A stretch of 64,000 nt of DNA, taken from positions 1-64,000 of the forward strand of contig NZ_HG942064.1 of assembly GCF_000612665.1 (NCBI RefSeq), read 5' to 3'. Below, piece after piece: positions 15,784 to 44,884 of this stretch; positions within the stretch are counted from its first letter, which is position 1, and the number at the start of each line of letters is the position of its first letter. A model generated the notes under the pieces. That model was not told the DNA's origin. It did not search any database and saw only the letters and a list, made by a program, of their open reading frames with translations. Origin of the DNA: Neobacillus dielmonensis (lineage in GTDB: Bacteria; Bacillota; Bacilli; Bacillales; Cytobacillaceae). The position numbers were made by a program, and so were the translations under genes.

Positions 15784-15785
15784 AA

Positions 15786-16742: not shown

Positions 16743-16754
16743 GGTGTTTCCCTC

Positions 16755-19086: not shown

Positions 19087-19194
19087 TGGATTTTCCCCCT
19101 TAATGATTGTAAAATAAGTTCATTTTTCATTATCAAGCAACCATACACCGCTATCTTTCCGGCCCTCGCCCCCTTTCAATGTCCATCCTATCTT

Positions 19195-20361: not shown

Positions 20362-20430
20362 TTTTCCTACCTCCCGCTTCAGAGTTCCCACCAAAAAGCG
20401 ACATTTTTCTAGAATTTTCTAAAAATTCTA

Positions 20431-22026: not shown

Positions 22027-22041
22027 GATTTGGTGCCTCCT

Positions 22042-22758: not shown

Positions 22759-22775
22759 GTCTACTTCCCCCTTGG

Positions 22776-23825: not shown

Positions 23826-23831
23826 GCAGGG

Positions 23832-24746: not shown

Positions 24747-24806
24747 ATTTCGACACACCTTTCCAATATACTTTATAACGGTAAAAGCTCTTGCTCTTAG
24801 AAAGGA

Positions 24807-25760: not shown

Positions 25761-25880
25761 CCAGGCAACCCCTTTTTCCAAATAGCTCCTAAGGTCCTAT
25801 TAGATATTTTCATTATATCAAGCCACTGGTTAAATTGAAATAAAAAGTCATAAACTATTTGGTAACTTTGTACTATCATT

Positions 25881-26846: not shown

Positions 26847-26889
26847 GCACGAAACAGCCCCCATGAACCATTCTTTATTTCACACTTTC

Positions 26890-29227: not shown

Positions 29228-30640
29228 ATGCTTTCCAATGAAGTAAAACAAAAACTGATCAACATCGTAACCGAGGAAAACTTCGCCGATTCCAAAACAG
29301 AACGGTTAGTCTACTCGTATGATGCCACACCCAACTTTCAATCATTGCCGGATGCTGTCGTCAGCCCAAGGAACACAATCGAAGTTTCCGAGATTGTAAA
29401 ACTCTGCAACGAACACAAAGTACCGATTGTTCCGCGCGGCTCGGGGACCAACCTTTGTGCCGGCACCTGCCCCACCCAGGGCGGAATCGTCCTTCTTTTT
29501 AAACATATGAATAAAATCCTCGAAATCGATGAGGAAAATTTAACCGTGACCGTTCAACCCGGACTGATTACGCTGGATTTAATCAATGCTGTCGAGGAAA
29601 AAGGGCTGTTCTATCCGCCTGACCCTAGCTCAATGAAAATCTCAACCATCGGCGGCAACATCAACGAAAACTCTGGGGGTCTGCGCGGCCTTAAGTATGG
29701 AGTGACCCGCGATTATGTCATTGCCCTGGAAGCCGTACTCCCGAATGGCGATCTCATCCGCACTGGCGGGAAGCTGGCAAAAGATGTGGCCGGCTATGAT
29801 TTGACTCGCCTCTTAGTTGGCTCGGAAGGGACGCTCGGCATCATCACGGAGGCCACACTGAAGCTGATTCCGATACCAGAAGCGCGGAAAACCATGTTGG
29901 TTCACTACCATGACCTGGCAGCTGCCGCTAAATCTGTTTCCAAGATTATTGCCAATAAGATTATTCCGGCAACCCTCGAGTTCCTAGATCAGCCGACATT
30001 AAAGGTGGTCGAGGATTTTGCCCGAATCGGCTTGCCCACTGATGTGGAAGCAGTTCTCCTCATTGAGCAGGACGGCCCCCTTGAAGTGGTTGAACGGGAT
30101 ATCAAAAAAATTGCGGAAATCTGCCAACAGGAACAGGCTGTTTCTGTAAAAATTGCTGCATCGGAGACGGAAGCGGATGCGTTACGGACCGCACGGCGCG
30201 CCGCCCTTTCCGCTGTCGCCCGGTTGGCGCCGACGACTATCCTTGAGGATGCGACGGTCCCTCGTTCAGAAATAGCCAACATGGTCAAAGCGATCAATGA
30301 AATCACCGAAAAATATCAGCTGACGATTTGCACGTTTGGACATGCCGGTGATGGCAACCTCCACCCCACTTGCGCCACCGATTCAAGGAACCATGAAGAA
30401 ATGGAACGAGTGGAGAAAGCATTTGCGGAAATTTTTGAAAAAGCGATTGAACTGGGCGGCACGATTACCGGTGAACACGGGGTTGGCGAGATGAAAGCCC
30501 CTTATCTTGAATGGAAGCTGAAAAAAGAAGGAATTGCTGCTATGAAGGCGATTAAACAAGCATTTGACCCTAACAATATCATGAATCCCGGCAAGGTATT
30601 TGCCAAGGAAACAAGAAAACGCGTGGTGGTGGCAAGATGA
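29228..30640 (+). CDS. glcD: Glycolate oxidase subunit GlcD (FAD-linked oxidase)
   Basis: 470 residues. FAD-binding type 4 domain: IVPRGSGTNLCAGTCP, FYPPDPSSMKISTIGGNINE, NSGGLRGLKYGVTRDYV and GSEGTLGIITEATLKL. C-terminal cap with GHAGDGNLHPT and GTITGEHGVGEMK (metal/substrate-binding His residues). It oxidises glycolate or a similar 2-hydroxy acid with GlcF. Bacillus versions (YsfC/YsfD) lack a separate GlcE, as here. ATG follows GGGAGG. Overlaps glcF by 4 bp, so translation is coupled. D-lactate released by MurQ is a possible alternative substrate; this is a guess. Confidence 0.85.
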   Translation: MLSNEVKQKLINIVTEENFADSKTERLVYSYDATPNFQSLPDAVVSPRNTIEVSEIVKLCNEHKVPIVPRGSGTNLCAGTCPTQGGIVLLFKHMNKILEIDEENLTVTVQPGLITLDLINAVEEKGLFYPPDPSSMKISTIGGNINENSGGLRGLKYGVTRDYVIALEAVLPNGDLIRTGGKLAKDVAGYDLTRLLVGSEGTLGIITEATLKLIPIPEARKTMLVHYHDLAAAAKSVSKIIANKIIPATLEFLDQPTLKVVEDFARIGLPTDVEAVLLIEQDGPLEVVERDIKKIAEICQQEQAVSVKIAASETEADALRTARRAALSAVARLAPTTILEDATVPRSEIANMVKAINEITEKYQLTICTFGHAGDGNLHPTCATDSRNHEEMERVEKAFAEIFEKAIELGGTITGEHGVGEMKAPYLEWKLKKEGIAAMKAIKQAFDPNNIMNPGKVFAKETRKRVVVAR

Positions 30641-31965
30641 CAACCGTAGAAGAACAAGCAAAAATCCAGGAACAATTCAAAGCACGGATGGACGAAAATG
30701 AGCTATTAAACTGCATGCGCTGCGGCTTTTGCCTGCCTTCCTGCCCAACCTATATTGAATCGGGTTTTAAAGAGTCTCACTCCCCCCGCGGCCGGATTGC
30801 CTTAATGAAGGCCGTGGTTGATGGCTTGTTTGAACCGGATGATGACTTTGAACGTTCACTTGACCTCTGCCTCGGCTGCCGAGCCTGTGAACCCGTTTGC
30901 CCTTCCGGCGTAAACTATGGTCACTTGCTGGAAGAAGCCCGGGATATCATCAATCAAAATAAGAAGCATTCTTTGCCAGCAAGGGTAGTCCGAAAAACTG
31001 TTTTTGAAGGGCTATTCCCGCACCAAAACCGGATGAGGAGTTTAACAGGACTGCTTGGTTTTTACCAACGTTCCGGCCTGCAGACTTTCGCAAGAAGGAT
31101 TCACTTTTTGGGACTGCTGCCTGAGAATCTCGCCACCATGGAAAAAGTGCTTCCTAAAGTGCCAACCATGAAGGAAATGAAAAATCGTCCTGAGCATCTG
31201 CCAGCGCTAGGCCAGCAGGTACACCGGGTAGCGTTTTTCAGCGGCTGTTTAATGGATACCATGTTTTTGAAGACCAACGATGCGACCATGAAGCTGCTGC
31301 AATTAGCCGGCTGTGAAATTGTCAATCCGCCAAGCCAAACCTGCTGCGGGGCATTGCATGGCCACAGCGGTGAGAAGTCCTCCGCCAAGGAACTGGCAAA
31401 AAGAAATATCGCCGCATTCGAGGACTTGCAGGTAGATTTTATCATTACCAATGCCGGGGGCTGTGGAGCCTTTTTAATCGAATATGACCATTTATTGAAA
31501 GACGACGTGGAATGGAAGGATCGGGCAAAGAGGTTCACAGAGAAAATTAAGGATATTTCGGAGATATTAGTGGCGGTTGGGTTCCATGAGAAGGTGAAAC
31601 TGGAGCTTCCGCCACAAGTCATTACCTACCAGGATTCCTGCCATCTTAAAAATGTCATGAAAACAGAGTCAGCTCCAAGAATCCTGCTGCAATCCATCCA
31701 AGGCGTGAAATACCAGGAAATGAAGGACGCCGGACGCTGCTGCGGCTCCGCTGGGATCTACAATATCATCGAATCAGAAAGCTCGATGGTTATGTTGGAC
31801 TACAAAATGACCCAAGTGAGAGCCACTCAAGCCACCGCCATCGTCACCGCCAACCCCGGCTGCCTGCTCCAAATGCAGCTCGGAATCGAAAAAGAAGGCC
31901 TCAGCTCAAAGATGAGAGGAGTGCATATCGTGGACCTATTGCTGGAGGCAGTGAAGCAAGGGTGA
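30637..31965 (+). CDS. glcF: Glycolate oxidase iron-sulfur subunit GlcF
   Basis: 442 residues. Two 4Fe-4S motifs near the N-terminus: CMRCGFCLPSCP and CLGCRACEPVCP. Two CCG domains follow: SGCLMDTMF...TCCGALHGHSG and SCHLKNVM...GRCCGSAGIYN, the heterodisulfide-reductase-like cysteine motifs. Transfers electrons from GlcD to the chain. Its ATG overlaps the glcD stop (ATGA). The end of the gene (VKQG, then TGA) touches repeat copy 7. Confidence 0.85.
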   Translation: MTTVEEQAKIQEQFKARMDENELLNCMRCGFCLPSCPTYIESGFKESHSPRGRIALMKAVVDGLFEPDDDFERSLDLCLGCRACEPVCPSGVNYGHLLEEARDIINQNKKHSLPARVVRKTVFEGLFPHQNRMRSLTGLLGFYQRSGLQTFARRIHFLGLLPENLATMEKVLPKVPTMKEMKNRPEHLPALGQQVHRVAFFSGCLMDTMFLKTNDATMKLLQLAGCEIVNPPSQTCCGALHGHSGEKSSAKELAKRNIAAFEDLQVDFIITNAGGCGAFLIEYDHLLKDDVEWKDRAKRFTEKIKDISEILVAVGFHEKVKLELPPQVITYQDSCHLKNVMKTESAPRILLQSIQGVKYQEMKDAGRCCGSAGIYNIIESESSMVMLDYKMTQVRATQATAIVTANPGCLLQMQLGIEKEGLSSKMRGVHIVDLLLEAVKQG

Positions 31966-32046
31966 AGCAAGGGTTCATGAAGTACAGGGGCGGTTCCTGC
32001 GGCTCTTTAGGCCCATCAGAACCGTCCCCCTGGTCCCAGTTACTTA
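31966..32046. repeat. GGGACGGTTCT repeat, copy 7, inverted pair and convergent terminator
   Basis: AGGGGCGGTTC at 31986-31996 pairs with GAACCGTCCCCCT at 32019-32031 between the convergent glcF and ALDH genes. Both neighbouring stop codons lie at the repeat edges (TGA at 31963-31965, TAA at 32046-32044). Confidence 0.7.
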
Positions 32047-33519
32047 TCCAATTTCGATGACACAAGCTTTTTCGCGGGTATTTTCTAAGATAGAGTCCTT
32101 GCCAAAGCCGCTTTCTTTAAATCCACCAAATGGCAGCTCGACTCCAACCCTGCGGTAGGTATTCACCCAAACAGTACCGGATTCCAAGGCGCTTATCATT
32201 CGCTGTGCACGTGCAAGGTTGGTGGTCCATACTCCTGCTCCAAGACCATAGGCTGTATCATTGGCGATTTCAATCGCCTCTTCTTCTGTCTCAAATGGAA
32301 TCACAACAGCCACCGGTCCGAATATTTCCTCCTGGCAAACGCGATAGGAGTTTTTATCTACCTGAATTAACGTTGGTTCCACCCAGTATCCTTTGGAGTA
32401 CTGTGGTTGTCCCGGCAGCAGAATTTCCCCTCCGCGTCTGCCGCCAAAGATAATCTTTCCACCTTCCTTAACCCCCAAATCTAAATAGGAGCAGACCTTC
32501 TCATATTGCGGCAAGTTGGCTATTGGCCCCATTGTAGTGGTAAAGTCCAAGGTATCTCCCAGTTTAAGCGGTTCTAAGGTTTTCGCTTTCATCAAGGTTA
32601 ACATTTCATCAAATATAGATTTTTGGATTAAAATTCTTGAACCAGCCACACATAGTTGCCCTGCATTACCGGTAAAGATTCCATTCGTCGTAACTCCTTC
32701 TGCTGCTTTTTCAAGGTCCGCATCCTCAAAAACTATGTTTGGGGATTTGCCGCCTAATTCCAGTGTTAATGGTTTCGGGTCTCTTGCGGTCGATTGTATA
32801 ATTGACCTAGCTGTTCTTCCTGAACCGGTCAAACTAACACGATTAATTCCCTTGTGCGCCACAAGGCAATCCCCAATTTCATTGCCTAATCCGGAAATAA
32901 CATTTAGTACACCAGGAGGCAAAATTTCCGCCAGAATCTCTCCATAGCGGAGCGGCCCCACAGCAGCCAATTCCGAAGGTTTAATAATGACAGTATTACC
33001 AGCTGCCAAGGCATAGGCTGCCTTGACGGTGAAGGTAAACAATGGAGCATTCCATGGAATAATGCCAAGCACAACGCCTAACGGTTCACGGATGGTATAG
33101 CCGAAGGAAGTAGGGCCTAGCGGAACCGTTTCCCCCTTACAGGCAACAGTTGCGGCACCAGCCGCATCATACCAAATTTGTTTCAAAACGGGGATTAATC
33201 CATAAATGGATTCCCGGATCACCCAGCCAGTATCCATCGTTTCCATTTCCGCGAGTTCTTGACCATACTTATCGATGATATTTCCGATTTTCCTTAAATA
33301 TTCCGCACGTTCCCCTGCCGAAAGTCCAGTCCAAGCCGGAAAAGCCCTGCGTGCAGCGGCAACCACTGATTCTACATCTTCCTTCGAACTTAATGGAATC
33401 CTTGCCCAAACATCACCCGTTGCAGGATTAATGGCATCCATTGTCCGCTCATCAGATGACGACACCAATTTTCCGTTTATAAGATTTTGATACTGTTTGA
33501 TTTCCTTCGTAACCTCCAC
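32044..33519 (-). CDS. NAD(P)-dependent aldehyde dehydrogenase
   Basis: 491 residues. ALDH motifs: GIIPWNAPLF, IIKPSELAA, RVSLTGSGRTARSI, catalytic Glu in LELGGKSPNIVFEDAD, catalytic Cys in NAGQLCVAGSRI, and EEIFGPVAVVIPF. It oxidises an aldehyde to an acid. As the last gene of the acyl-CoA operon, it could take the aldehyde released by the thiolase-like/DUF35 retro-aldolase. A weak terminator-like hairpin lies between it and the CoA ligase gene, so expression may be partly separate. GTG start after AAAGGGTGAAGG. Confidence 0.85.
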   Translation of the reverse strand: MEVTKEIKQYQNLINGKLVSSSDERTMDAINPATGDVWARIPLSSKEDVESVVAAARRAFPAWTGLSAGERAEYLRKIGNIIDKYGQELAEMETMDTGWVIRESIYGLIPVLKQIWYDAAGAATVACKGETVPLGPTSFGYTIREPLGVVLGIIPWNAPLFTFTVKAAYALAAGNTVIIKPSELAAVGPLRYGEILAEILPPGVLNVISGLGNEIGDCLVAHKGINRVSLTGSGRTARSIIQSTARDPKPLTLELGGKSPNIVFEDADLEKAAEGVTTNGIFTGNAGQLCVAGSRILIQKSIFDEMLTLMKAKTLEPLKLGDTLDFTTTMGPIANLPQYEKVCSYLDLGVKEGGKIIFGGRRGGEILLPGQPQYSKGYWVEPTLIQVDKNSYRVCQEEIFGPVAVVIPFETEEEAIEIANDTAYGLGAGVWTTNLARAQRMISALESGTVWVNTYRRVGVELPFGGFKESGFGKDSILENTREKACVIEIG

Positions 33520-33563
33520 AATCCTTCACCCTTTCTATCATTTGAATGAGTAACAAAAGAAGA

Positions 33564-33588
33564 GGGTCGCCTACATTCTGAGCAACCC
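33564..33588 (-). terminator. Weak intrinsic terminator between CoA ligase and ALDH genes
   Basis: Minus strand GGGTTGC / GCGACCC hairpin (33588-33564) followed by TCTTCTTTTG. One G-T pair and a broken T tract make this a partial terminator at most. Confidence 0.4.
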
Positions 33589-33601
33589 CATCTGTTATAG
33601 A

Positions 33602-35164
33602 CTAAGAGATCCTTGAATCCATTTTTTGAAGTTCATCCCTTAAATTCCGTTTTAAGATTTTCCCTACTCCGTTTCGAGGCAAACTTTCCACAAACAAAAC
33701 CCGTCTCGGAGATTTATATTTTGCGAGTTTTTCTTGTGTATAACGGATGATTTCCTCCTCCGTTACCTCTTTCCCAGGTTTTTTCACGACACAGGCGACC
33801 ACCTCTTCGCCCATCCTTTCATCCGGCAAGCCAATGACGGCAACATCTGATACCGCCTCATGTTTACTTAAAATCTCTTCTATGTCCCGCGGATAAATGT
33901 TAAACCCGCCGCGAATGATTAAATCTTTCTTACGGTCTACGATATAAATGTAATCCTCGTCATCCATCATCGCTAAATCACCGGTGTATAACCAACCATC
34001 TCTAATCGCCTTTTCCGTTTCCTCCGGCAAGCCATAATAACCTGGAGTGATAGCTTCCCCTTGAACGATAATTTCACCAATTTCTCCTTTGGGAAGTTCC
34101 TTACCGTCTTGGTCGACAATCTTTACATTTACATAAGGATACGGCGTCCCTGCAGAGCCTCGTTTAACGGGCACACCTTCTCGATGTCCTGAAACACCGC
34201 CAGTAGCTGTTTCAGAAAGTCCATATGCCTCCAGTATTTCCGCTTGGTACCTTTTTTCAAAGGTCTCGATGACCGATAGCGGCAAATTGGCTGAACCGCA
34301 ATTCACACTTTCCAGGCTGGAAAGATCATATCGGTCGGGAATGGGACTAAACGCCAAATCGTGAACCATGGTCGGCACCACGGCAAATTGTTTGACTTTA
34401 AACTTTTCAATCGTTTCACAGACTTTTTCCAGGTCATATTTTGAAAAAATTACAATCGAATCCCCGAACATGAGATTGGTGATCATGACACCAAAGCCAT
34501 AAATATGGGCTAAAGGTAAGACACCAATGGTAGTTCCACGTTCAGTGTTGCCCTGGTTCACTTTCATTCGATACAAGTGCTCTGGTCCGACTGTAAGATT
34601 TCTATGGGTAAGCATGACCCCTTTTGGTCTTCCAGTAGTTCCCGATGTATAGAGAATGACGGCAACATCTTCTTCATTTGCGCTTTCAAATTGCTCTTCC
34701 CCGATATCAATCGTTTCGAGGGCGGAATATAGCTCAATAATCTCATGACCATGATAGGCGTCCTTGTCTTCTATTTCATCAATAACGAAGTATTTAATAG
34801 TGTAGTTTAAACTTTGGGCAGCAGTAATCAGTTTTGGTAAAACTTGAGCAGAGGTAAACACAGCCTTTGCCTGAGAGTCGTTCATAATATAGTGCATTTC
34901 ATTCGAATTTAAAACATACATAACGGGGATGACAATGTTGCGAGATCGAAGGATGCCCTGGAAAGAAAAAATCACTTCGGGATTATTTTGCATACTAACA
35001 ATGACTCTTTCACCATCAAAAATTCCGTGACTTTTTAAGAGAATCGCGATTTTCTTGGCGAAGCTGTCAACTTCAAGGTTGGTGTAGACTTTTTCATTGT
35101 GAAATAGAAAGGGATACTCCCCATACTGTTGCTTTGTGTGGTGGATCAAATCTGTCAGCAGCAT
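33602..35164 (-). CDS. Acyl-CoA synthetase (AMP-forming)
   Basis: 520 residues of the ANL superfamily. P-loop-like ILYTSGTTGRPKGVMLTHRN, EAYGLSETATGG, YTGDLAMMDDEDYIYIVDR and the C-terminal GGFNIYPRDIEEIL plus the catalytic Lys region NGVGKILKRNL. It activates a carboxylic acid to its CoA thioester, the first step of this operon. Chain preference cannot be read. ATG after GGAGGAATGTT. Confidence 0.85.
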   Translation of the reverse strand: MLLTDLIHHTKQQYGEYPFLFHNEKVYTNLEVDSFAKKIAILLKSHGIFDGERVIVSMQNNPEVIFSFQGILRSRNIVIPVMYVLNSNEMHYIMNDSQAKAVFTSAQVLPKLITAAQSLNYTIKYFVIDEIEDKDAYHGHEIIELYSALETIDIGEEQFESANEEDVAVILYTSGTTGRPKGVMLTHRNLTVGPEHLYRMKVNQGNTERGTTIGVLPLAHIYGFGVMITNLMFGDSIVIFSKYDLEKVCETIEKFKVKQFAVVPTMVHDLAFSPIPDRYDLSSLESVNCGSANLPLSVIETFEKRYQAEILEAYGLSETATGGVSGHREGVPVKRGSAGTPYPYVNVKIVDQDGKELPKGEIGEIIVQGEAITPGYYGLPEETEKAIRDGWLYTGDLAMMDDEDYIYIVDRKKDLIIRGGFNIYPRDIEEILSKHEAVSDVAVIGLPDERMGEEVVACVVKKPGKEVTEEEIIRYTQEKLAKYKSPRRVLFVESLPRNGVGKILKRNLRDELQKMDSRIS

Positions 35165-35210
35165 AACATTCCTCCTCCATTCAAATCATCTTTATAGATT
35201 CATAGAACTT

Positions 35211-36347
35211 TTACCAATTTAAGGCCACTGCAGCTTTTTCCCGATAATGCTGAATACTGCCCAGATAATTTTCATAGTACCGCGCCCGCTTTAAATAAAG
35301 CTGGCAATCAAGTTCCTCCGTGAATCCAATTCCGCCATGGATTTGGATGCTATGAGAGGCTATGCGAATATAAGCTTCCGTTGTAAAAGCACGGGCGCTG
35401 AAAATAGCCGCTTCCCGATCCGCCGCATTTGTTTCAAGTGCCCAGGTGGCGTAGTAGCTTAACGACCTGGCCGTTTCTAAATCTGTTTTCATATCGGCGA
35501 TTCGGTGTTTGATTGCTTGGAACCGGCCAATCGGCTGACCAAATTGAACGCGAATTTTTGCATACTCTGCCGTCATTTCAACTAGACGGTCCATCCCGCC
35601 AATCATCAGTGAACACAGGGCTGCATTGATATGGAGCAAACCCTCCTGTAAAATGGACCAGCCTTGATTGATTTCCCCTAATACGCAGTCAGTCGAAACA
35701 ATAACTTTTTCAAACGTGACTTCAGCTAACATCCGGGTTTCATCAAAGCTTTTTTGCTTACGAGTTTTCACCTTGATTTCATCCCTGTCCACTAGGACTA
35801 AGGATAACCCTTCCCCATCTGTTCCGTCTGAAGTCCGTACAAGTAACAAATACGTATCAGCAGTTTCCCCTTCAGGGACTGACGATTTTGTTCCATTAAT
35901 GACAAGTGAGGTTCCTTCGATTGAAGCAGAAGTCTGTACTTCATTGGGATGATAGCCTCCCTTTGGCTCTAACCAGGCCAGTGTCACCGTTCTTGAACCT
36001 GTTGCGATCTGCGGCAAATACTTTTGCCTTTGCTGTTCTGTCCCGTACTTTTCGATTAAAGGAACCGAAAATGCAAGCGTTTCCAAATAGATCCCAGGTA
36101 AATGGGCGCGCCCTAATTCCTCGAGAACTGGAACCAAATCTAGGGATCCCAGTTCAGCCCCTTCATATTTCTCCGGAATGGTAATGGCCGTACAGCCTAG
36201 CCCCGCTAGACCCGCAAGTGCTTTCTCTAATGATGATCCGTCTCCCCTGATAAAATCACGGGCAATTTGGGTTGATCCATTTCCATCTAGAAATTTTCGG
36301 ACAGAGCTTCGAAACATTTCCTGTTCTTGACTCAATGAAAAATCCAT
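35211..36347 (-). CDS. Acyl-CoA dehydrogenase, FadE28-like partner
   Basis: 378 residues. Acyl-CoA dehydrogenase fold: LAWLEPKGGYHPN in the middle domain, YAKIRVQFGQPIGRFQAIKH and HSIQIHGGIGFTEELDCQLY at the C-terminus. The typical YEGT/S region with catalytic Glu is replaced by YENYLGSIQHYRE. It is directly followed upstream by a second, different dehydrogenase gene 21 bp away. Paired genes of this kind (FadE28/FadE29 or ChsE1/ChsE2) make heterotetramers in actinobacterial steroid side-chain degradation. The same is inferred here. Confidence 0.8.
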   Translation of the reverse strand: MDFSLSQEQEMFRSSVRKFLDGNGSTQIARDFIRGDGSSLEKALAGLAGLGCTAITIPEKYEGAELGSLDLVPVLEELGRAHLPGIYLETLAFSVPLIEKYGTEQQRQKYLPQIATGSRTVTLAWLEPKGGYHPNEVQTSASIEGTSLVINGTKSSVPEGETADTYLLLVRTSDGTDGEGLSLVLVDRDEIKVKTRKQKSFDETRMLAEVTFEKVIVSTDCVLGEINQGWSILQEGLLHINAALCSLMIGGMDRLVEMTAEYAKIRVQFGQPIGRFQAIKHRIADMKTDLETARSLSYYATWALETNAADREAAIFSARAFTTEAYIRIASHSIQIHGGIGFTEELDCQLYLKRARYYENYLGSIQHYREKAAVALNW

Positions 36348-36368
36348 TTTTCCCGCACCTCCTCTTTA

Positions 36369-37562
36369 TTAACGTCCCATATCCTTCGGTAAGCCGAGGA
36401 TTCTTTCGGCAATCGTATTTCTTTGAATTTCACTTGTTCCGCCGCCAATCGTCATTCCAAATGAATACAGGTAATTTTTCTGCCAAGATGAATCCATGAT
36501 CGCATCTTCTTTCCACAATACGCCCTGGTGTCCATGCAAGGTAAGGGCGTAAGAGAACATTTCTTTGGTCAATTCACTTACGAGGAGTTTATCCATTGAA
36601 CCTTCCGCGCCAGGATAACCTCTCTTAAGCGTTGTTGTTAAATTGCGATAATAGTTTAATTGTGCTCCGCGGTTACGTGTATAAAGGTCAACCATCTTCT
36701 GGCGGACTAATGGGTCTTTAATTAAAGGACTTCCATTTTCTTGGAGCTCTTTTGCCAGTTCTACAAAATCCCCAAATTGCTGTTCCAACGTAAACAGCTG
36801 TGCCCCAATCCCTGTCCGCTCGTGCATGAGCAGGGTAATCATGACCTTCCAGCCTTCGTCGATCTCGCCAACAATATCTGCATCATAGGCAACGGCGTCA
36901 TTGAAATACACTTCATTAAAATCATGTTCCCCATCCATTTGGATGATTGGTCTTGTTTCTACACCAGGCTGGTGCATATCAACTAAAAATACCGTGATCC
37001 CTTTTTGCCTTTTCTCATGATTAGAGGTTCTTGCAAGCAAGAAACATTTGTCTGCCAAATGGCCAAAACTTGTCCATACCTTTTGGCCATTAATGATCCA
37101 GCGTTCTCCATCCTTCACTGCCGTTGTTTTGATGGCAGTAAGGTCTGAACCTGCGTTGGGCTCCGAATATCCTTGACACCACACTTCTTCCCCGGTGAGC
37201 ATTTTCTCGATGTATTTATGTTTTTGTTCCTCTGTTCCTATTTGAATCAAGGTAGGACCAACCATATGGATGCCAACGTAATTAATCAGGGGAGGTGCTT
37301 TTACCCGAACCATTTCCTGCTGATAGATAATTTCTTCCATTAAGGTTGCGTCACGTCCGCCGTATTGTTTGGGCCAAGCAATAGCCGCCCATCCACCTTC
37401 ATATAACTTTTTCTGCCAATTTCTTAAAAACTGTGAATACTCCCGATTGTCTTCAGGTAGGGCTGTTTTCCCCTCTAACCAGCCCTCAGGTAAATTTTGC
37501 TCCAGCCACTCCCTTAGTACAGATCGAAATTTTTCTTCTTTTTTTGTAAAAGAAAAATCCAT
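36369..37562 (-). CDS. Acyl-CoA dehydrogenase, FadE29-like partner
   Basis: 397 residues. Motifs: WPKQYGGRDATLMEEIIYQQ, CQGYSEPNAGSDLTAIKT, WIINGQKVWTSFGHLADKCF and FGMTIGGGTSEIQRNTIAER at the end. The GGGTSEIQRN ending with Gly at the usual Glu position is typical of the FadE29/ChsE2-like branch, where the base lies elsewhere. Likely a heteromer with the neighbouring dehydrogenase and introduces a 2,3-double bond into the acyl-CoA. FAD-dependent, cytosolic. Confidence 0.8.
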   Translation of the reverse strand: MDFSFTKKEEKFRSVLREWLEQNLPEGWLEGKTALPEDNREYSQFLRNWQKKLYEGGWAAIAWPKQYGGRDATLMEEIIYQQEMVRVKAPPLINYVGIHMVGPTLIQIGTEEQKHKYIEKMLTGEEVWCQGYSEPNAGSDLTAIKTTAVKDGERWIINGQKVWTSFGHLADKCFLLARTSNHEKRQKGITVFLVDMHQPGVETRPIIQMDGEHDFNEVYFNDAVAYDADIVGEIDEGWKVMITLLMHERTGIGAQLFTLEQQFGDFVELAKELQENGSPLIKDPLVRQKMVDLYTRNRGAQLNYYRNLTTTLKRGYPGAEGSMDKLLVSELTKEMFSYALTLHGHQGVLWKEDAIMDSSWQKNYLYSFGMTIGGGTSEIQRNTIAERILGLPKDMGR

Positions 37563-37590
37563 ACAGTCCTATCCTCCTCTTGGATTCTTT

Positions 37591-38010
37591 TTATAAAACT
37601 GCTTTCCACTGTGGAAGTGCTCTGTCTTCCGTGATATCAACCCAAACCATTTGAACAGGCATCCCGATGTTTACAGCTTCTGGTCTGCATTCAAGAATAT
37701 TTCCAATAATCCGTACACTTGGTGCCTTCTCCAGCTCAATGATCGCGATGATATGCGGAATTTCATCCTGAAAACCGGGTAAAAAAGGCCGGTAAGAAAC
37801 AACGTAGGAATAGACTGTCCCTTTAATATCACTGCCAAGGTTTTCCCAACTAAGCTCCGTACTGCCGCACTTTGCGCAGCTTGGACCTGGTGGATGGGCA
37901 TATTCCCCGCAGCATTCACACTTTTGCAAGCTAAGTTCATGGCAATCTGCCGCATCCCAATATGGATGGTTATCATGATTTTTTAACGGAATTGGTCGTT
38001 GATAACTCAT
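37591..38010 (-). CDS. DUF35 zinc-ribbon OB-fold protein
   Basis: 139 residues. Four-Cys zinc ribbon (CECCGEYAHPPGPSCAKCGS) at about residues 31-50, then an OB fold (GTVYSYVVSYRPFLPGFQDE). DUF35 proteins pair with thiolase-like enzymes. In actinobacterial steroid degradation the DUF35 domain of ChsH2 activates the Ltp2 aldolase. The gene is 12 bp after the thiolase-like gene and surely part of the same complex. ATG after AGGAGG. Confidence 0.8.
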   Translation of the reverse strand: MSYQRPIPLKNHDNHPYWDAADCHELSLQKCECCGEYAHPPGPSCAKCGSTELSWENLGSDIKGTVYSYVVSYRPFLPGFQDEIPHIIAIIELEKAPSVRIIGNILECRPEAVNIGMPVQMVWVDITEDRALPQWKAVL

Positions 38011-38022
38011 AAAAATTCCCTC

Positions 38023-39186
38023 CTAGTTTTTCAGAATCATGGCACCGGCCATATCCGGACCAGCCCAGCCAGTACAAATTCCAATTTCACAATTTTCTAC
38101 TTGACGATCTGTTCCTTGGTACTCATGGCGGATTTGCCTTACGATTTCAAGGACATTATTCATGCCATGTGTATAGCCTTCGGATAACATGCCTCCCGCG
38201 GTATTGGAAGGAAGTCTGCCTCCCATTTTCAAGTGTCCGTCTGCGACAAAATCACCTACTTCGCCTCTCGGTGCAAATCCATATGCCTCAAGCTGACGCA
38301 GGACAACCCAGCTATAGCAGTCATAAATGGAGGCCACCTGGATATCTTCTGGTTTCACTCCCGCCATTTTGAAGACTTCAGGGGCCACATAATCCGATGC
38401 CACTTGGGATAAATCGGACCAATAATGGGTGTGGGGGTGACATTGCCGCCCCGAAATTCCCATAATATAAACAGGTCTTGACTTACAATCCTTTGCTCTT
38501 TCAGCAGAAGTAACGATTATGGCATTCGCCTCATCTGATTCAAGACAAAAATCATGTTTGTTAAACGGGTACACTAGATCAGGAGTGTTCAAATATTCTT
38601 CCATCGTTAGCGGTTTGCCATTGAAAAAGGCCTTCGGATTTCGCTGTGCATGTTCATAAAAGCTGACACATACATGGCCCAGATGCTCTTTGGTGATGCC
38701 TGTCTCATGCATATGCCTAGTGGCAAATAAGCCGAACCACTGACCAGGACCTCCTGCCCCGTAAGGAATAATAAAGCTTCCACCGTCAATTGCGTTTTGA
38801 AGCAGATTCATATCCCAGCCGCCGCCGCCCATTCTTACACCAGAACGGCCATTCATGGAACGGTAAATGAGTACGGTATTTAACATTCCAGCTTCAATCA
38901 ATCCAATGGCATCGGCAATTAACATCTCTGTACTGCTGCCGCCGCCGGTAATATCCTTGACATACTTCGGTCTGACCCCTAAATAAGTGGCCAACTGATG
39001 GGAAGTACAGGAATCATTTTCATGGTAGCTCATGAATCCATCGATTTCCTTCGCACTTATTCCAGCATCAGCAATGGCAGCACGAGCAGCGTCCAAAGCT
39101 AGGTGCAGCGGACTTCTCCCCGAGTTTTTTGACCGTTCACTTTCTCCTACACCAACAATGGCATAACGGTTCGATATATTCCCCAT
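38023..39186 (-). CDS. Thiolase-like protein without nucleophilic Cys (Ltp2-like)
   Basis: 387 residues with thiolase fold: AIVGVGESERSKNSGRSPLH, LALDAARAAIADAGI, GIEGFM-like segment (GFMSYHENDS), and the C-terminal NTAGGMLSEGYTHGMNNVLE. At the place where SCP2 thiolases have the acylated Cys (usually GACSS) this protein has TGGGSSTEM, so no Cys. The usual GHPxG is GYTHG. This pattern fits Ltp2-type aldolases, which do retro-aldol cleavage with DUF35, and not true thiolase chemistry. Neighbour DUF35 gene supports this. Confidence 0.75.
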   Translation of the reverse strand: MGNISNRYAIVGVGESERSKNSGRSPLHLALDAARAAIADAGISAKEIDGFMSYHENDSCTSHQLATYLGVRPKYVKDITGGGSSTEMLIADAIGLIEAGMLNTVLIYRSMNGRSGVRMGGGGWDMNLLQNAIDGGSFIIPYGAGGPGQWFGLFATRHMHETGITKEHLGHVCVSFYEHAQRNPKAFFNGKPLTMEEYLNTPDLVYPFNKHDFCLESDEANAIIVTSAERAKDCKSRPVYIMGISGRQCHPHTHYWSDLSQVASDYVAPEVFKMAGVKPEDIQVASIYDCYSWVVLRQLEAYGFAPRGEVGDFVADGHLKMGGRLPSNTAGGMLSEGYTHGMNNVLEIVRQIRHEYQGTDRQVENCEIGICTGWAGPDMAGAMILKN

Positions 39187-39223
39187 GTAAAAAACCTCCT
39201 ATCATTCTATTAAGCAACCATTT

Positions 39224-39640
39224 TCAGTAAAATTTTAAAACCGCTTGGCCAGAACCAACTGTTTCTTCTGAAGACTTTGCAGCTGTTAATGACAAGCTGA
39301 CATACTTTTTGCCTGCCTCTTCATATAACTCTTTAACCACTGCGGAACAGGTAATCACATCGCCTGGCCGGGTCATTGCCCCAAAACGCATTCGGAATCT
39401 GGTTGTTTCAGCATTGGTTCCTGCAAGCTTCATTACATATTCTCCTAAAAATCCCATGACTAGCATACCGTGGGCAATCACCCCGTTCATGCCAATGCTT
39501 TTGGCAAACTCATCGTCTGTATGAAGTGGATTAAAATCACCTGATGCCCCGGCATATTGAACTAATTGCACCTTGGTAACCGGTTCTTTTGTCAACGGTT
39601 CAAGCACTTGCCCTTCCTTAAGTTCTTTATATTCCAACAT
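39224..39640 (-). CDS. MaoC-like enoyl-CoA hydratase, catalytic subunit
   Basis: About 138 residues, single hot-dog domain. The hydratase motif is intact: ASGDFNPLHTDDEFAKSIGM then NGVIAHGMLVMGF, with the Asp and His of the catalytic pair. It adds water to a trans-2-enoyl-CoA. Start ATG 39640 follows AAAGGAGG; an in-frame codon at 39682 would overlap the upstream gene. Probably a heterodimer with the next-door MaoC protein. Confidence 0.8.
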   Translation of the reverse strand: MLEYKELKEGQVLEPLTKEPVTKVQLVQYAGASGDFNPLHTDDEFAKSIGMNGVIAHGMLVMGFLGEYVMKLAGTNAETTRFRMRFGAMTRPGDVITCSAVVKELYEEAGKKYVSLSLTAAKSSEETVGSGQAVLKFY

Positions 39641-39656
39641 GATGAAGGTCCTCCTT

Positions 39657-40103
39657 TCATCTGGGCAACGGTCGATAAACAATGTTCATTCGGCTAATGA
39701 CGACCATTTCTCCCGCTTCATCCTTCATTTCCGTGTCAATGACCAAAAACTGCATCGTACCGCTTTTGCCTTCTTTTTCGTATAGATCTGTCACTTTCAT
39801 TTGGCAGGACAAACGGTCTCCCGGGCGAATGGGCTTGTAATAAATAAACTCTTGTTCACCATGCAGCATGCGGCGCTCATCTAGTGTAAGCGGCAAGCCG
39901 CCTCCCTCTGAACTGATCGCTACTGGAAACGTTGGAGGTGCGATTAACCCACCATAAAACGTATTTTCAGCATAATTCTGATCAGTATATAAAGGATTCC
40001 GGTCACCTATCGCATGGGCAAACTGGCGGATATGACGTTTTTCTACTTCAAAACTGAAAACCTCCCCACTAACACCGACGATACTTTGATCGAGATTCAC
40101 CAT
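39657..40103 (-). CDS. MaoC-like hydratase partner, His replaced
   Basis: About 148 residues, hot-dog fold of the N-terminal MaoC/HadA type. The motif reads AIGDRNPLYTDQNYAENT: Asp is kept, but the position of the catalytic His is Tyr. Such non-catalytic subunits pair with an active MaoC protein (as HadA or HadC with HadB, or ChsH1/ChsH2). First gene of the acyl-CoA operon. ATG 40103 is preceded by GGGA and a GTG at 40109. Confidence 0.75.
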   Translation of the reverse strand: MVNLDQSIVGVSGEVFSFEVEKRHIRQFAHAIGDRNPLYTDQNYAENTFYGGLIAPPTFPVAISSEGGGLPLTLDERRMLHGEQEFIYYKPIRPGDRLSCQMKVTDLYEKEGKSGTMQFLVIDTEMKDEAGEMVVISRMNIVYRPLPR

Positions 40104-40153: not shown

Positions 40154-40182
40154 ATTTTAGTTATGCCGGACCATAGAGACAA
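40154..40182 (-). promoter_or_regulatory. Probable promoter of the acyl-CoA operon
   Basis: Minus strand: -35 TTGTCT (40182-40177), 17-bp spacer, -10 TAAAAT (40159-40154), about 50 bp before the first MaoC start. An AAGCGCTT palindrome lies 15-20 bp further upstream (near 40201). Confidence 0.45.
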
Positions 40183-40287
40183 TGTAGGTTTTTATAAAAA
40201 AAGCGCTTATTTATTGTAAGGAATTCCAATGTCCAACATGCCTTAGGCATGCTACTAGCAGCAGATATTAAAAGTTACAAGCAAACG

Positions 40288-40326: not shown

Positions 40327-42150
40327 CTAGTATTCGGTTGATACTCTTAAATAGCAGGCAAGCTGAAGACGAAGGACATTTTCGGTATTTTCAAAGGATA
40401 ACTGTAAAATCTCCTCAATTTTTTTCAAGCGGTGATAGAGCGTATTGATATGAATATGCAATTTCTTGGCAGTTTGGGCAGCCGATCGATTACACTCAAA
40501 ATAGGTCAATAACGTCTGTTCCAACATATTATTCCCTTGATTGGAGCGAAGCGGTTCAAACACGTCCTTTACGTAACGGTTGAGTTCATCTCCATTTTGA
40601 TTGATAAACAGCCGATTGACACCAATCTCGGAATACTCGATCACCCCAGACAACTTACGGGATTTTAAGTAGGAAAGAGCATTTTTTGCTTCCTTATAGG
40701 ATTTGTCAATAGAAGGAAGTCCATTATAAAGTGACCCTATTCCCACACCTAATTCAATGTGATTATTCTTTGTCCAATCCCCTAATAATTTACTAAGCAT
40801 TTTCTTTATCACCGCAAAGTGGGACGGTTTTGATACCCCAGCCAGTAAGGTTACTTCATTGTTATAACCAAACACCGTTTGGATATAGGGGGATAGTTCC
40901 GTTTTAATTTGAGCAATCAATCGATGAACATGTGCTTCGAGAACTTGCGGCTCTGTAAAATCATAAAACTGAAAAATAACAGAAACCAAATCCGAGTTTT
41001 CTTCGATTCCCAGCTCTCTTGCTTTCAGTTGGAGCAGTTCCATATCTTTTATTTGGAGAATTTCATTAAATAATTCCCTCTTCTTTTTATAATAGAATTC
41101 TACTAAATTTTGCTTTTTCACTAATTCTAGGGCAAGTATTGAATGGCCTTGCTCTAGTGTTATTTGGTCGAGCTGGCTGAGCTGTCTTTGGGCCCGGATG
41201 ATCAAGCAGCCGAGAATGACATTTCCCGTGCGAATTGGGTATAGATAATGACTTCCATACTGTGATTCACTTACATTATAATGGATGTTTTCACCCAGTG
41301 CTGCCAAGTAATCACATAACTCCTTGTAGGCTTTATGATCAGGGAGCCCTTTTGTTTCAGGTATACTCTCATTTTCAATCAAATCTATGAAAAAGATTGG
41401 CAAATTAATCATCCGCCTCAATTCCTGAATCACCTTTTTTGCTCCCATATTTTGAAGGGAAAGATTCGTAAGGGTGGTATGAATGTCATCCCTTTTGACC
41501 AATAACTCATTTTGTTTTTTAAGATCAGTAAAAAGTCGTGCATTCCTCATTGCAATCCCGAGCTGTGAGGTAAAACCCTGAAGTAATTGTAAGTCTTGTT
41601 CGGTCAGCAACGTTTTCGTCTTAATCTGGCATAAGATCATCACACATTCTACCCGTTCATCGATGATAATGGGTGCTGTCACCATGGATTTCACATTTCT
41701 AGGGAAATCAAGGTTAAAATCCCAATGCCGGCTATTTTCAATGGAAGTTCTCCAAATGTCATCATTCATCTCTGACAAATCGGTAAATAATTTTGGAACC
41801 TTCAATTTAAAGGTATAACCCACGAAACCTTCATCCACGCCAAACTGCATCTTCCGGATCCCTGGTACCACATTACCGACAGATGCCTTACATACATAGC
41901 GATTAAGGCCTGGGTCATAAAACCATAATGTTCCTAAATCCGCATGAGGGATGACATCCATCGTATTGGCAAGAATGGTGGAGTGTAAATCCTCTATATC
42001 CAGTACCGAGGTCGTATGACGGATGCTTTCCACAATTTTATCAATTTTATATTCGCTTGTTTTCAAGGCATAGTTGGCATAACAAGGATACAGTAAATGA
42101 AAGAGTAATTGAAAATCATTAGAATTGATGGTAATGGGTTGAAATAGCAA
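40327..42150 (-). CDS. GAF/PucR-type transcription regulator (main part)
   Basis: About 600 residues readable in this frame. A GAF domain (about 45-200; LGTLWFYDPGLNRYVCKASV), a CdaR/GGDEF-like middle domain (NEVTLLAGVSKPSHFAVIKK; GVGIGSLYNGLPSIDKSYKE) and a C-terminal PucR HTH (LTYFECNRSAAQTAKKLHIH then INTLYHRLKKIEEIL). The frame opens with TTG 42150 and no ribosome site. The protein clearly begins further upstream in another frame (see 42148-42380). It lies next to the acyl-CoA operon and is the likely activator. Confidence 0.75.
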   Translation of the reverse strand: MLFQPITINSNDFQLLFHLLYPCYANYALKTSEYKIDKIVESIRHTTSVLDIEDLHSTILANTMDVIPHADLGTLWFYDPGLNRYVCKASVGNVVPGIRKMQFGVDEGFVGYTFKLKVPKLFTDLSEMNDDIWRTSIENSRHWDFNLDFPRNVKSMVTAPIIIDERVECVMILCQIKTKTLLTEQDLQLLQGFTSQLGIAMRNARLFTDLKKQNELLVKRDDIHTTLTNLSLQNMGAKKVIQELRRMINLPIFFIDLIENESIPETKGLPDHKAYKELCDYLAALGENIHYNVSESQYGSHYLYPIRTGNVILGCLIIRAQRQLSQLDQITLEQGHSILALELVKKQNLVEFYYKKKRELFNEILQIKDMELLQLKARELGIEENSDLVSVIFQFYDFTEPQVLEAHVHRLIAQIKTELSPYIQTVFGYNNEVTLLAGVSKPSHFAVIKKMLSKLLGDWTKNNHIELGVGIGSLYNGLPSIDKSYKEAKNALSYLKSRKLSGVIEYSEIGVNRLFINQNGDELNRYVKDVFEPLRSNQGNNMLEQTLLTYFECNRSAAQTAKKLHIHINTLYHRLKKIEEILQLSFENTENVLRLQLACYLRVSTEY

Positions 42151-42380
42151 ACGATGATTTGGTAATTACCTGGATAGTTGAAAGATAGGTAGGTTTTATT
42201 GTCTTGAATCGATTGAGACAGTTCTAAAGAGGAGATTTGTTGTGTAAGTTCCCCGCTGCCCTCGATACTTGTATCAATAATAATGAAATTGGGCATTCCT
42301 GGTGCAGTTAACCAAATTTGATAAGCGGTTTGTATACCTATTTGTCTCAGAAATGATTGGAAGAAGGTTCGATTAAACAT
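42148..42380 (-). pseudogene. 5' part of the PucR-type regulator, frameshifted
   Basis: The minus strand from ATG 42380 reads MFNRTFFQSFLRQIGIQTAY and on to YPGNYQIIV, then the frame should change to LFQPITINSNDFQLLFHLL. The join near 42148-42155 needs a one-base change. There is no homopolymer longer than three bases at the point. The gene is either inactivated by a real frameshift, or there is a sequence error. Confidence 0.6.
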
Positions 42381-42796: not shown

Positions 42797-44086
42797 TTGT
42801 CCTCGAAAATTATTATACATACGGATGTTGTGAAGCAATCAATTTCCGAATTAGACAAAGGCGTCGCCAGGTTACTTGATGCCCAGAGAGAGGCAGCTGG
42901 AGTAAGACATGGTCTCGACCCGAGAGTATTAAGACGAAATGCGATTAGTTCGAGATTAAACGCAGTAAGTGCCTCAATTGGGGAGGTTGAAAACAAAGTA
43001 AATCAACTGAAATCCTTTGTATCCAGCTCAGTGAGCCAATATAAAGCAGTTGAGTCCCGTTTGAATCAATCGGCGGATGCCCTTGAGGAAGAATTAACAA
43101 AGCTCGTAAACAATCATACTGCCAGTAACACATATGAGCTTTATAACAACACGGTCGGCCGGTTGCAGGATTTTTTACATGCGATGCAATATTCTGCTGG
43201 AGCTGGTGTTCTTCATCTATTAGGATTTACATTTCCCAAGGTGGATAATTTATTATACCGCTTTGAGCTGGCAGATGAAGTCATGATTGGAAAAGCAAAA
43301 ATACCGGTTGGGAAAGCGATTAGGGGAATTGAAAATTCAAAGCTTAACTTTTTAGCGAGGGTTTTGGCAAAGCCCAAGACCCTACTAGGTTTTTATAAGG
43401 ATAAATCATTGGCGGATTTGGTTTATAAACGATTTACGCACCTTTTTCCTAAAGATTTAGTCAATCTAAGCAACAATATGGCATTGTTTAAGAAAGACCT
43501 TTCTCGGTCTGCCACCAGCATTAAAAGCACACTAAATGCTGTCAAAACCCACGCAGGATCGATCGTAAAGTCATCCTTGAAGGTCGGCAAGGCCAACGCA
43601 TTAGCCGCTTTTGTGATCACGGCAGGAACAGAGGCAGTCGGTGCCGGGATCAAAATAACTGAAAACTACTCCATCTATCGCGGAAATGTTGAAAAACTGA
43701 AGGAAGAAAACGCCAAGGTTGTTGGACGCGCGGTTTACAAGACCGGGGTCGTAACCGCAACCTCAGTTGGAGGAGCGGTGATTGGCGGCGCTATCGGAAG
43801 TATTGCCGGGCCAATCGGTACCGTAGCGGGAGCAAGTATTGGCGGCTTCATTGGCAGCTGGGCTGGGGATAAGATTTGTGATAAGACACCAGCTTTCGTG
43901 GATAAAGCCGCACTGCATTTTAAAAATGGCATTTACAAGGGAACAGAGGCCATCGCTTCGGGAGTGGAAAAAGTGAAGGATGGGTATCACGCGGTGAAGG
44001 ATGGATACAATGCCGTAAAAGACCACGCTGCCAATCTATTAAATAGCTCGAAAAAGTTCCTTGGAGGATTGTCGTTTGGCCATTAG
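42797..44086 (+). CDS. Glycine-zipper protein with T7SS-effector-like N-terminus
   Basis: 429 residues, not clearly recognised. Residues 1-95 are helical and resemble the LXG/YwqI-type N-terminal domains of type VII effectors (VKQSISELDKGVARLLDAQR; ISSRLNAVSASIGEVENKVN; SVSQYKAVESRLNQSADALE). The middle is basic and helical. About residues 315-355 are a glycine zipper: GGAVIGGAIGSIAGPIGTVA then GASIGGFIGSWAGDK, typical of membrane-inserting or pre-toxin segments. Followed by imperfect KDGY(H/N)AVKD repeats. No signal peptide. TTG start with AAGGG about 10 nt upstream. First gene of a three-gene operon. Confidence 0.6.
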   Translation: MSSKIIIHTDVVKQSISELDKGVARLLDAQREAAGVRHGLDPRVLRRNAISSRLNAVSASIGEVENKVNQLKSFVSSSVSQYKAVESRLNQSADALEEELTKLVNNHTASNTYELYNNTVGRLQDFLHAMQYSAGAGVLHLLGFTFPKVDNLLYRFELADEVMIGKAKIPVGKAIRGIENSKLNFLARVLAKPKTLLGFYKDKSLADLVYKRFTHLFPKDLVNLSNNMALFKKDLSRSATSIKSTLNAVKTHAGSIVKSSLKVGKANALAAFVITAGTEAVGAGIKITENYSIYRGNVEKLKEENAKVVGRAVYKTGVVTATSVGGAVIGGAIGSIAGPIGTVAGASIGGFIGSWAGDKICDKTPAFVDKAALHFKNGIYKGTEAIASGVEKVKDGYHAVKDGYNAVKDHAANLLNSSKKFLGGLSFGH

Positions 44087-44095
44087 GAGGAAATC

Positions 44096-44869
44096 ATGAA
44101 TCAACTATCATTATCTATTGAAGAATTAATTTATTGCTTTTACTCGGAAGGGTTTTTTGAGCAGGGCAATGCGCTCAAGCAGGTCTATTTTGGCGATTTA
44201 GATGACGAGAAAATGGACCTTCTCTTGCAAATCACCTGCAGGTCCTTACTTGCGAAAAATGTATTATCCTATAAAGATCATAAATTCACCCTGATTCCGG
44301 AGCTGTCTGAGGTGATTTCAATCCTTAATTTTTCCGAACTGTCGATAAAAGGCTCACGGCACTCTGCAGCTGCAGAGGAAGAATCTTTATCCTTTCATTT
44401 TGGAAAAAATCGTATTATCCAACATGTCCTGCAATATGACGAACAGGTACATACCTTTACGTCTGTCGAGTTAGATGAGGTATCCCGCATTCTTGGGGAA
44501 TTTTATCATGTGGGGACGGAACCTGTTTTAAGTGACTCCTCCTGTTCACTGACCCAGGAAGAGTTTGAGGAGCTTCTTTCCATTTTGGAAGATAATAACA
44601 AACAATTTGACCGCCCAACGTTTCACGGTGAAAAAGAACTTTTTTACAGGATATTAAAGGAAACCAACGGGCTGCTTAATACGCTTTTGTTCCTAGAATT
44701 TAATGACCAGAAGGAACCGGTAGCCAAAAACGTGGTGATGTTCACCAATAAACAAGAACAAAATTGGCAGATTGAAAAAACGGATGGCCTTTTTAATGTG
44801 AAACCATGTAATCAATCCATGATTCAGCGATTACTGGAAGAGAATGTAATGGTCTACCAAAAACGATAG
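44096..44869 (+). CDS. EspG/DUF5081-like helper protein (tentative)
   Basis: 257 residues, soluble, acidic. Starts MNQLSLSIEELIYCFYSEGF and ends with a region of alternating beta strands. No catalytic motif is visible. Size and placement directly behind a T7SS-type effector gene (9 bp gap) recall the EspG-like/DUF5081 proteins that accompany such effectors; this is by memory and not proven. ATG follows TAGGAGG. Confidence 0.5.
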   Translation: MNQLSLSIEELIYCFYSEGFFEQGNALKQVYFGDLDDEKMDLLLQITCRSLLAKNVLSYKDHKFTLIPELSEVISILNFSELSIKGSRHSAAAEEESLSFHFGKNRIIQHVLQYDEQVHTFTSVELDEVSRILGEFYHVGTEPVLSDSSCSLTQEEFEELLSILEDNNKQFDRPTFHGEKELFYRILKETNGLLNTLLFLEFNDQKEPVAKNVVMFTNKQEQNWQIEKTDGLFNVKPCNQSMIQRLLEENVMVYQKR

Positions 44870-44884
44870 AAAAGGAACCTTCTT

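Follow-up and report, generated by a model that had tools for sequence, protein, structure and literature searches.

A conserved operon of Bacillota that probably shortens a bulky acid with an aldolase derived from an old thiolase

The stretch of DNA analysed here (the window) comprises positions 1 to 64,000 of the forward strand of contig NZ_HG942064.1 of Neobacillus dielmonensis (assembly GCF_000612665.1; genome G000 in our set). It carries an eight-gene operon on the minus strand (40103-32044; intergenic gaps of 12-82 nucleotides (nt)) that probably shortens a bulky acid by carbon-carbon cleavage, with an aldolase derived from an old thiolase. Judged from sequence comparisons, it is likely to be a catabolic operon that takes a bulky or beta-hindered carboxylic acid through a route akin to beta-oxidation that ends with a retro-aldol cleavage. 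A preliminary description of this DNA had proposed a coenzyme A (CoA) ligase, two acyl-CoA dehydrogenases, a catalytic and a His-less MaoC protein, a DUF35 protein, a thiolase-like protein and an aldehyde dehydrogenase (ALDH), and Pfam matches and residue alignments confirmed all of these parts. In their order from 40103, the genes encode:

39657..40103, minus strand: MaoC-1, predicted non-catalytic hydratase subunit with Tyr for His (Pfam FAS1_DH_region/MaoC)
39224..39640, minus strand: MaoC-2, predicted catalytic hydratase subunit with an Asp/His dyad (Pfam MaoC)
38023..39186, minus strand: thiolase-fold putative retro-aldolase with Gly83, Tyr288-Asp-Cys290-Tyr291 and Tyr338 (Pfam Thiolase_C_1)
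37591..38010, minus strand: DUF35 protein (zinc ribbon and OB fold), predicted aldolase partner (Pfam zf-ChsH2, OB_ChsH2_C)
36369..37562, minus strand: acyl-CoA dehydrogenase 1, predicted catalytic subunit with Glu248 (Pfam)
35211..36347, minus strand: acyl-CoA dehydrogenase 2, predicted non-catalytic partner (Pfam)
33602..35164, minus strand: AMP-forming acyl-CoA ligase (Pfam AMP-binding; PRK06187 above cut-off)
32044..33519, minus strand: ALDH with Glu254 and Cys290 (Pfam Aldedh)

By eye, the likely start of MaoC-1 is the ATG at 40103; MaoC-2 probably starts at 39640 rather than at the TTG of the mechanical open reading frame (ORF). Among the nine proteins scanned at the operon, none had a Pfam match to a 3-hydroxyacyl-CoA dehydrogenase or to Thiolase_N; the genome encodes four Thiolase_C proteins elsewhere and no canonical thiolase inside the operon. 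The Rfam scan of the window gave nothing at gathering score.

A single scan of a genome contig collection yielded 48 related loci, 44 of them from Bacillota. All 44 Bacillota loci, which by their names come from 15 genera including Neobacillus, Sporosarcina, Kurthia, Virgibacillus, Oceanobacillus and Planococcus, share a six-gene core made up of the MaoC pair, the aldolase, the DUF35 protein and the dehydrogenase pair; therefore, the operon is not a chance grouping. Since gene calls are poor in the loci of high GC content, the genes of each operon were counted anew with tblastn, under set identity thresholds. It is a real, conserved module and, as far as sequence can tell, a variant of known retro-aldol side-chain systems.

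From the observed gene order, conservation, residue patterns and fold similarity, we infer the reactions, complexes and substrates of the following route: (i) The ligase would convert the acid to its acyl-CoA. (ii) A heteromeric dehydrogenase, with the catalytic Glu in one subunit, would form the enoyl-CoA and pass the electrons to the electron transfer flavoprotein (ETF). (iii) A MaoC heterodimer would hydrate the enoyl-CoA to the 3-hydroxyacyl-CoA. (iv) The thiolase-fold protein together with DUF35 would split this intermediate into acetyl-CoA and an aldehyde; propionyl-CoA would result from an alpha-methylated substrate, and a tertiary beta carbon would give a ketone in place of the aldehyde. 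(v) The ALDH would oxidise the aldehyde to the shortened acid. An ALDH gene belongs to three quarters of the operons, and for this reason we favour an aldehyde product with release of acetyl-CoA.

The thiolase-fold protein and its DUF35 partner

By sequence, the thiolase-fold protein is closest to TcLtp2, the Ltp2 of Thermomonospora curvata (6OK1; 36-37% identity), and its closest solved fold is that of the Ltp2-ChsH2(DUF35) complex (6ok1_C, E 7.3e-41; Z 50.4, 2.2 Å over 368 residues, for an AlphaFold2 model of the protein with a mean predicted local distance difference test score (pLDDT) of 85.8). At the position of the thiolase nucleophile it has Gly83, which aligns with a Cys in a Rhodococcus protein of the thiolase family; thus, the thiolytic nucleophile is missing. 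The same Gly stands in place of the nucleophilic Cys of the SCP2-type thiolases in 46 of 46 proteins and in all 48 loci. The term Cys-less, used in the preliminary description, is apt for the nucleophile but not for the Cys of the XDCX motif, Cys290, which is kept throughout.

Gly83, Tyr288, Asp289, Cys290 and Tyr338 are invariant in the 46 proteins and, by tblastn, in the 48 loci, with the reservation that a locus was chosen for an exact IYDCYSW or YTHGMNN, so that the conservation of Cys290 or Tyr338 is inflated. A whole-protein search, free of motif selection, gave 13 close orthologues, and all 13 have the same active-site residues. Our residue table, which covers the orthologues of the fetched loci and of the window itself, left out rows that were below 45% identity or too short; its aldolase row missed L070, L084 and L087, and these were read separately by tblastn. 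Tyr288 to Tyr291 correspond to the YDCY of CtSal, with Y or F at position 291 among the relatives, and Tyr338 aligns with Tyr344 of TcLtp2, where CtSal has Gln352. According to an excerpt of PMC12329534, the Tyr and the Cys of YDCY serve as base and acid in CtSal, and Tyr344 is the acid of TcLtp2. On alignment, two presumed acid residues come together in the protein: that of the Comamonas Sal, as Cys290, and that of Ltp2, as Tyr338. In the proposed cleavage, Tyr288 would be the base, and Cys290 and/or Tyr338 the proton donor. The presence of both proton-donor residues in one aldolase bears on the question of how this active site was rebuilt from that of a thiolase.

More distant relatives vary at these positions: one match of 40% identity has YDCF and the Tyr, another of 38% has YDCF and His, and Neobacillus paralogues of 33-40% identity have YDA, YDS or YDC, frequently without Tyr338. 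Two Neobacillus paralogues beside the Ltp2 clade carry Ala for Cys290. The combination of the Cys with Tyr338 is not unique to the Bacillota clade, as it also occurs in Bosea, Novosphingobium and one Rhodococcus relative.

In the phylogenetic tree, the Bacillota proteins together with one beta- and one deltaproteobacterial relative form a starred group, which sits with Ltp2 in a larger starred group apart from CtSal; the exact place of CtSal is unsure because of its long branch. The approximately unbiased (AU) test rejected a single clade of the Bacillales proteins with TcLtp2 and the Vibrio Ltp2 (p 2.9e-5) as well as a single clade with CtSal (p 1.3e-5); the groups compared are those named by the finding, and the tests followed sight of the first tree. 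The motifs give a similarly mixed picture: YDCY/F replaces the YDHF of Ltp2 while the second catalytic Tyr of Ltp2 is present, and the YDCY/F of Sal is found without the Gln that Sal has at the second Tyr position.

The DUF35 protein is the only PF01796 match in this genome. Its zinc-type cysteines (Cys31, 34, 45 and 48) are conserved in 44 of 44 orthologues, its best PDB match is the Ltp2 partner (6ok1_B), and it is encoded by a separate gene, unfused to a MaoC domain. DUF35-thiolase complexes are also known to catalyse thiolysis and Friedel-Crafts acylation (7pxp, 5m3k; excerpt of PMC12329534), so the thiolase-fold protein might be an acyl transferase, or a thiolase with an unusual residue, rather than an aldolase. 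We consider this improbable, given the Gly at the nucleophile position, the invariant YDC and Tyr338, and an operon that holds hydratase and dehydrogenase pairs without any 3-hydroxyacyl-CoA dehydrogenase. The lack of the nucleophile, the conserved YDC and Tyr338, the DUF35 partner, the pairing of catalytic with non-catalytic subunits and the missing 3-hydroxyacyl-CoA dehydrogenase together favour retro-aldol cleavage over thiolysis; dehydrogenation, hydration and retro-aldol cleavage, the sequence of reactions put forward in the preliminary description, appears to be the best reading of these genes.

Paired enzymes and kinship with known side-chain systems

Both enzyme pairs show the division of labour expected of heteromeric complexes. 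In MaoC-1, the position of the catalytic His is occupied by Tyr41 (numbering of the 150-aa ORF) in 43 of 44 orthologues and by Phe in one; in MaoC-2, Asp49 and His54 (152-aa ORF) are present in 40 of 40. A dyad in one subunit and Tyr for His in its partner is the residue pattern of heteromeric MaoC hydratases, and the change from His to Tyr is also carried by ChsH2 (excerpt of PMC11321319). For the dehydrogenases, Glu248 of dehydrogenase 1, conserved in 43 of 43 orthologues, aligns with the catalytic base of 4x28_A, Glu247. In dehydrogenase 2, Ile240 and Leu362 stand at the two catalytic positions, neither of which is Glu in any of 44 orthologues; Ile240 was placed by eye against the Glu of the isovaleryl type. 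This distribution, with the catalytic Glu in one subunit only, is the residue pattern of the alpha2beta2 acyl-CoA dehydrogenases and is found in the steroid heterotetramers (excerpt of PMC8399759).

The kinship of the pairs does not support an identity with ChsH1-ChsH2 and FadE28/29. Against solved chains, MaoC-1 scores 33 bits with HadA and 24 with ChsH1 and ChsH2, and MaoC-2, whose six matches with E-values of 1e-8 or lower include no ChsH chain, scores 76 bits with HadB. Among solved structures, MaoC-2 is thus most closely related to HadB, and HadA is one of the nearest to MaoC-1; unlike the pair in the operon, HadA/HadB are dehydratases that make long fatty acids for mycolic acids (excerpt of PMC11321319) and do not lie beside an aldolase. 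Dehydrogenase 1 is nearest to 4x28_A, its best PDB match, and to Tcur3483, both of steroid degraders, whereas dehydrogenase 2 is nearer to ordinary homomeric enzymes; the best NCBIfam models are PimC and PimD, respectively, both far below cut-off. The two adjacent genes, one with and one without the catalytic Glu, resemble ChsE4-ChsE5 and PimCD, from which they differ by the kinship of dehydrogenase 2; their complex is a prediction. With an aldolase outside the Ltp2 clade, a HadA/HadB-like MaoC pair, a dehydrogenase 2 nearer to ordinary enzymes and a DUF35 gene of its own, the identity with FadE28/29, ChsH1/H2 and Ltp2 that the preliminary description suggested is not supported.

Two known systems lend themselves to comparison. 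The operon shares with Ltp2-ChsH2 of T. curvata the fold, the base Tyr, the second Tyr (344/338) and a four-Cys zinc-ribbon DUF35 partner, and is set apart by YDC instead of YDH, by its distinct clade, by a DUF35 protein that is not fused to MaoC, and by the lack of a steroid context. With Sal-Shy(DUF35) and Sad of Comamonas and Pseudomonas, which deacetylate C5 bile-acid side chains, it has in common the ligase, the dehydrogenase pair, the hydratase, the aldolase with its YDCY, DUF35 and the ALDH; the proteobacterial set consists of a ligase, Scd1AB, Shy, Sal and Sad (excerpt of PMC8399759). It differs in having two MaoC proteins instead of one that is fused to DUF35, Tyr338 instead of Gln352, and four Cys in DUF35 instead of Cys3His, and its aldolase is only 29% identical. 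Judged by analogy of gene content, the nearest counterpart of the whole pathway is the proteobacterial Sal/Sad deacetylation rather than the actinobacterial C3 step, which yields a ketone (excerpt of PMC12502768). The MaoC pair and the second Tyr resemble the C3 set invoked in the preliminary description; the ALDH fits the C5 route better. The operon is thus a mixture of both systems, with an enzyme set as in the C5 route and a MaoC pair and second Tyr as in the C3 system.

Could it be a true steroid or bile-acid side-chain operon (ChsE1E2-ChsH1H2-Ltp2 or Sal/Sad), perhaps for co-metabolic clipping of side chains? The enzyme logic is the same, the aldolase and DUF35 are nearest to Ltp2 and ChsH2, and the kinship of dehydrogenase 1 fits as well; moreover, some of the host genera are presumably dung genera. 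We nevertheless regard this as quite improbable, since the aldolase lies outside both the Ltp2 and the Sal clades, the MaoC pair scores higher against HadA/HadB, and neither KshA_C nor Ring_hydroxyl_A has a match in this genome, Ring_hydroxyl_A being absent from 6 of 14 operon carriers. The thiolase-fold retro-aldolases covered by the excerpt of PMC12329534 belong to steroid-degrading Actinobacteria and Proteobacteria, with one trypanosome protein proposed. A conserved Bacillota set in a genome that lacks the steroid-ring enzymes searched for suggests that retro-aldol chemistry is broader than steroids, and such a set could supply carbon-carbon lyases for biocatalysis.

Substrate, distribution and variable genes

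The searches of this genome gave no match to KshA_C, Ring_hydroxyl_A, intradiol dioxygenases or PaaA_PaaC (the searches did not extend to KstD, HsaC or other ring routes), so that growth on steroids or aromatics by the routes covered is unlikely. Use of steroids by the host was rejected on the empty KshA_C and Ring_hydroxyl_A searches; a steroid-degradation locus would be expected in a genome that also encodes steroid-ring enzymes, KshA for example, and a steroid acid, as considered in the preliminary description, is an unlikely substrate in this host. Use of aromatic rings was likewise rejected, with no intradiol and no PaaA_PaaC match and a single LigB-like protein, by eye of the DODA/YgiD kind, whose gene adjoins DoxX-like and esterase-like genes (by eye). 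In a set of 60 genomes, KshA_C matched eight: full length in G007, over about 154 positions in G019, and as fragments of about 60 positions in the rest. One fragment (5e-4) is in the operon carrier G022; the carriers G000 and G010 have none, and four other Neobacillus carriers were left out of this search. Ring_hydroxyl_A is present in 8 and PaaA_PaaC in 7 of 14 operon carriers, and since their presence differs among carriers, these families point to no substrate.

A phenylpropanoid-type acid (a 3-arylpropanoate), which would yield an aryl aldehyde and then an aryl acid, is unlikely, if somewhat less so than a steroid. It draws weak support from the expected aldehyde product in the presence of an ALDH, from 4-coumarate:CoA ligases among the top PDB matches of both AMP-ligase types, and from the ALDH being nearest to gamma-hydroxymuconic semialdehyde dehydrogenase; the ring families listed above, empty in this genome apart from the one LigB-like protein, speak against it, as an aryl acid would be unusable by these routes. 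The ligase has the ancestral luciferase AncLamp as well as 4-coumarate:CoA ligases as its best PDB matches, and the Glu and Cys of the ALDH are conserved in 32 of 32 orthologues; the relatives of both enzymes are too generic to decide the substrate. Our guess is an acid of the alicyclic, branched or aryl-alkanoic kind, whose use does not run through the degradation of steroid or aromatic rings.

While the core is constant, the rim varies. Enzymes from three unrelated families serve to form the acyl-CoA: the ligase type of the window is found there and in two loci (L042, L067), a longer AMP ligase of about 30% identity to it in 10 loci, and an ADP-forming type synthetase in 30 of 44 loci; for Bacillus testis (L069), no such enzyme is in the gene list, and a sigma-54 activator adjoins the core. 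A transporter of the major facilitator superfamily accompanies 21 of 44 loci, and EtfBA genes adjoin the operon in nine, two of them with a further Fe-S oxidoreductase gene. The distribution is patchy, with strong orthologues in 7 of 60 Neobacillus genomes and, across the order, in 8 of 397 (this genome counted in both), and this does not separate transfer from loss. Some loci belong to the same genomes as our genome set (e. g. L042 and G022).

Several observations speak against the proposed retro-aldol route. An ALDH orthologue of at least 45% identity is present in 33 of the 44 Bacillota loci and was not found in the fetched stretch of the other 11, among them both loci that share the ligase of the window (L042, L067) and L077, a short, truncated contig; four of the 11 have distant ALDHs of 26-35% only. 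The four non-Bacillota loci, from betaproteobacterial, acidimicrobial, deltaproteobacterial and Rokubacteria assemblies, have the aldolase and DUF35, and no MaoC or dehydrogenase orthologues were found in them at the identity thresholds; L082 has an ADP-forming type synthetase near its aldolase, and L087 has genes for a ligase and dehydrogenases at 25-33% identity. Finally, expression of the operon in this strain is uncertain because its regulator gene is frameshifted in this assembly.

We give an even chance to the broader proposal that this is a non-steroid, widespread and undescribed module of Bacillota, in which the aldolase has retained, perhaps as an ancestral state, the two proton donors that the characterised enzymes use one apiece (the Cys in Sal, the Tyr in Ltp2), and into which acids enter via exchangeable activating enzymes. 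No earlier report of such an operon in Bacillota was found in the open-licence literature, which is no proof of absence.

Related genes occur in other arrangements. A second Neobacillus cluster (L022:9093-15750; L029:5984-19352) has a ligase, dehydrogenases, MaoC, a thiolase-like protein and DUF35, and lies next to genes that by eye resemble those of enoyl-CoA hydratases and to class III CoA-transferases, of which Pfam identifies three in L022. The thiolase-like protein of this cluster is 37-40% identical, has YDAF and the Tyr but no Cys, and is sister to the Ltp2 clade. Related aldolase genes are also plasmid-borne (L107-L111), most of them beside an OB-fold or zinc-ribbon gene; according to annotation, the Vibrio alfacsensis plasmid (L109) apparently has a full ChsE-ChsH-Ltp2 set.

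Regulator and neighbouring genes

Upstream of the operon (42380-40327) lies a regulator gene split in two frames, by mutation or assembly error. Its 685-aa orthologue in the relative G022 is intact, and residues 75-679 of the latter match 42147-40339 at 84%.

40327..42150, minus strand: PucR/CdaR-type regulator, main piece with GAF, GGDEF-like and HTH_30 (Pfam); gene frameshifted in the assembly
42132..42380, minus strand: N-terminal piece of the regulator in a different frame, matching orthologue residues 1-79 at 72%
40154..40185, minus strand: putative operon promoter from a consensus scan, with ACATTGT overlapping the -35 (TTGTCT), a 17 nt spacer and TAAAAT

The consensus match is weak by itself, given 33 promoter-like sites in the stretch and 22.7 in shuffles. 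Counted over the loci in which MaoC-1 was called (five more were passed over), ACATTGT occurs upstream of MaoC-1 in 10 of 11 with the regulator type of the window and in 0 of 33 others. A palindrome at 40238-40250 was rejected as operator, since none of the other loci in which MaoC-1 was called shows it ahead of that gene.

On the opposite strand, a glycolate-oxidase-like pair (29228-31965) was left out of the operon parts because none of the 48 related loci has an orthologue, the one match being of 24% (Fe-S subunit, L088). Beside the regulator, three genes (42797-45403) encode proteins of 429, 257 and 172 aa, by eye only an LXG-like effector with its partners; the 429-aa protein has a glycine-rich hydrophobic C-terminal part, with weak Pfam matches below cut-off only. 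At 12578-26864 lies an apparent cluster for the recycling of N-acetylmuramic acid (MurNAc), with NamZ and AnmK assigned by Pfam, and NagZ, MurQ, a regulator, an ABC transporter and a BadF-type kinase by eye only.

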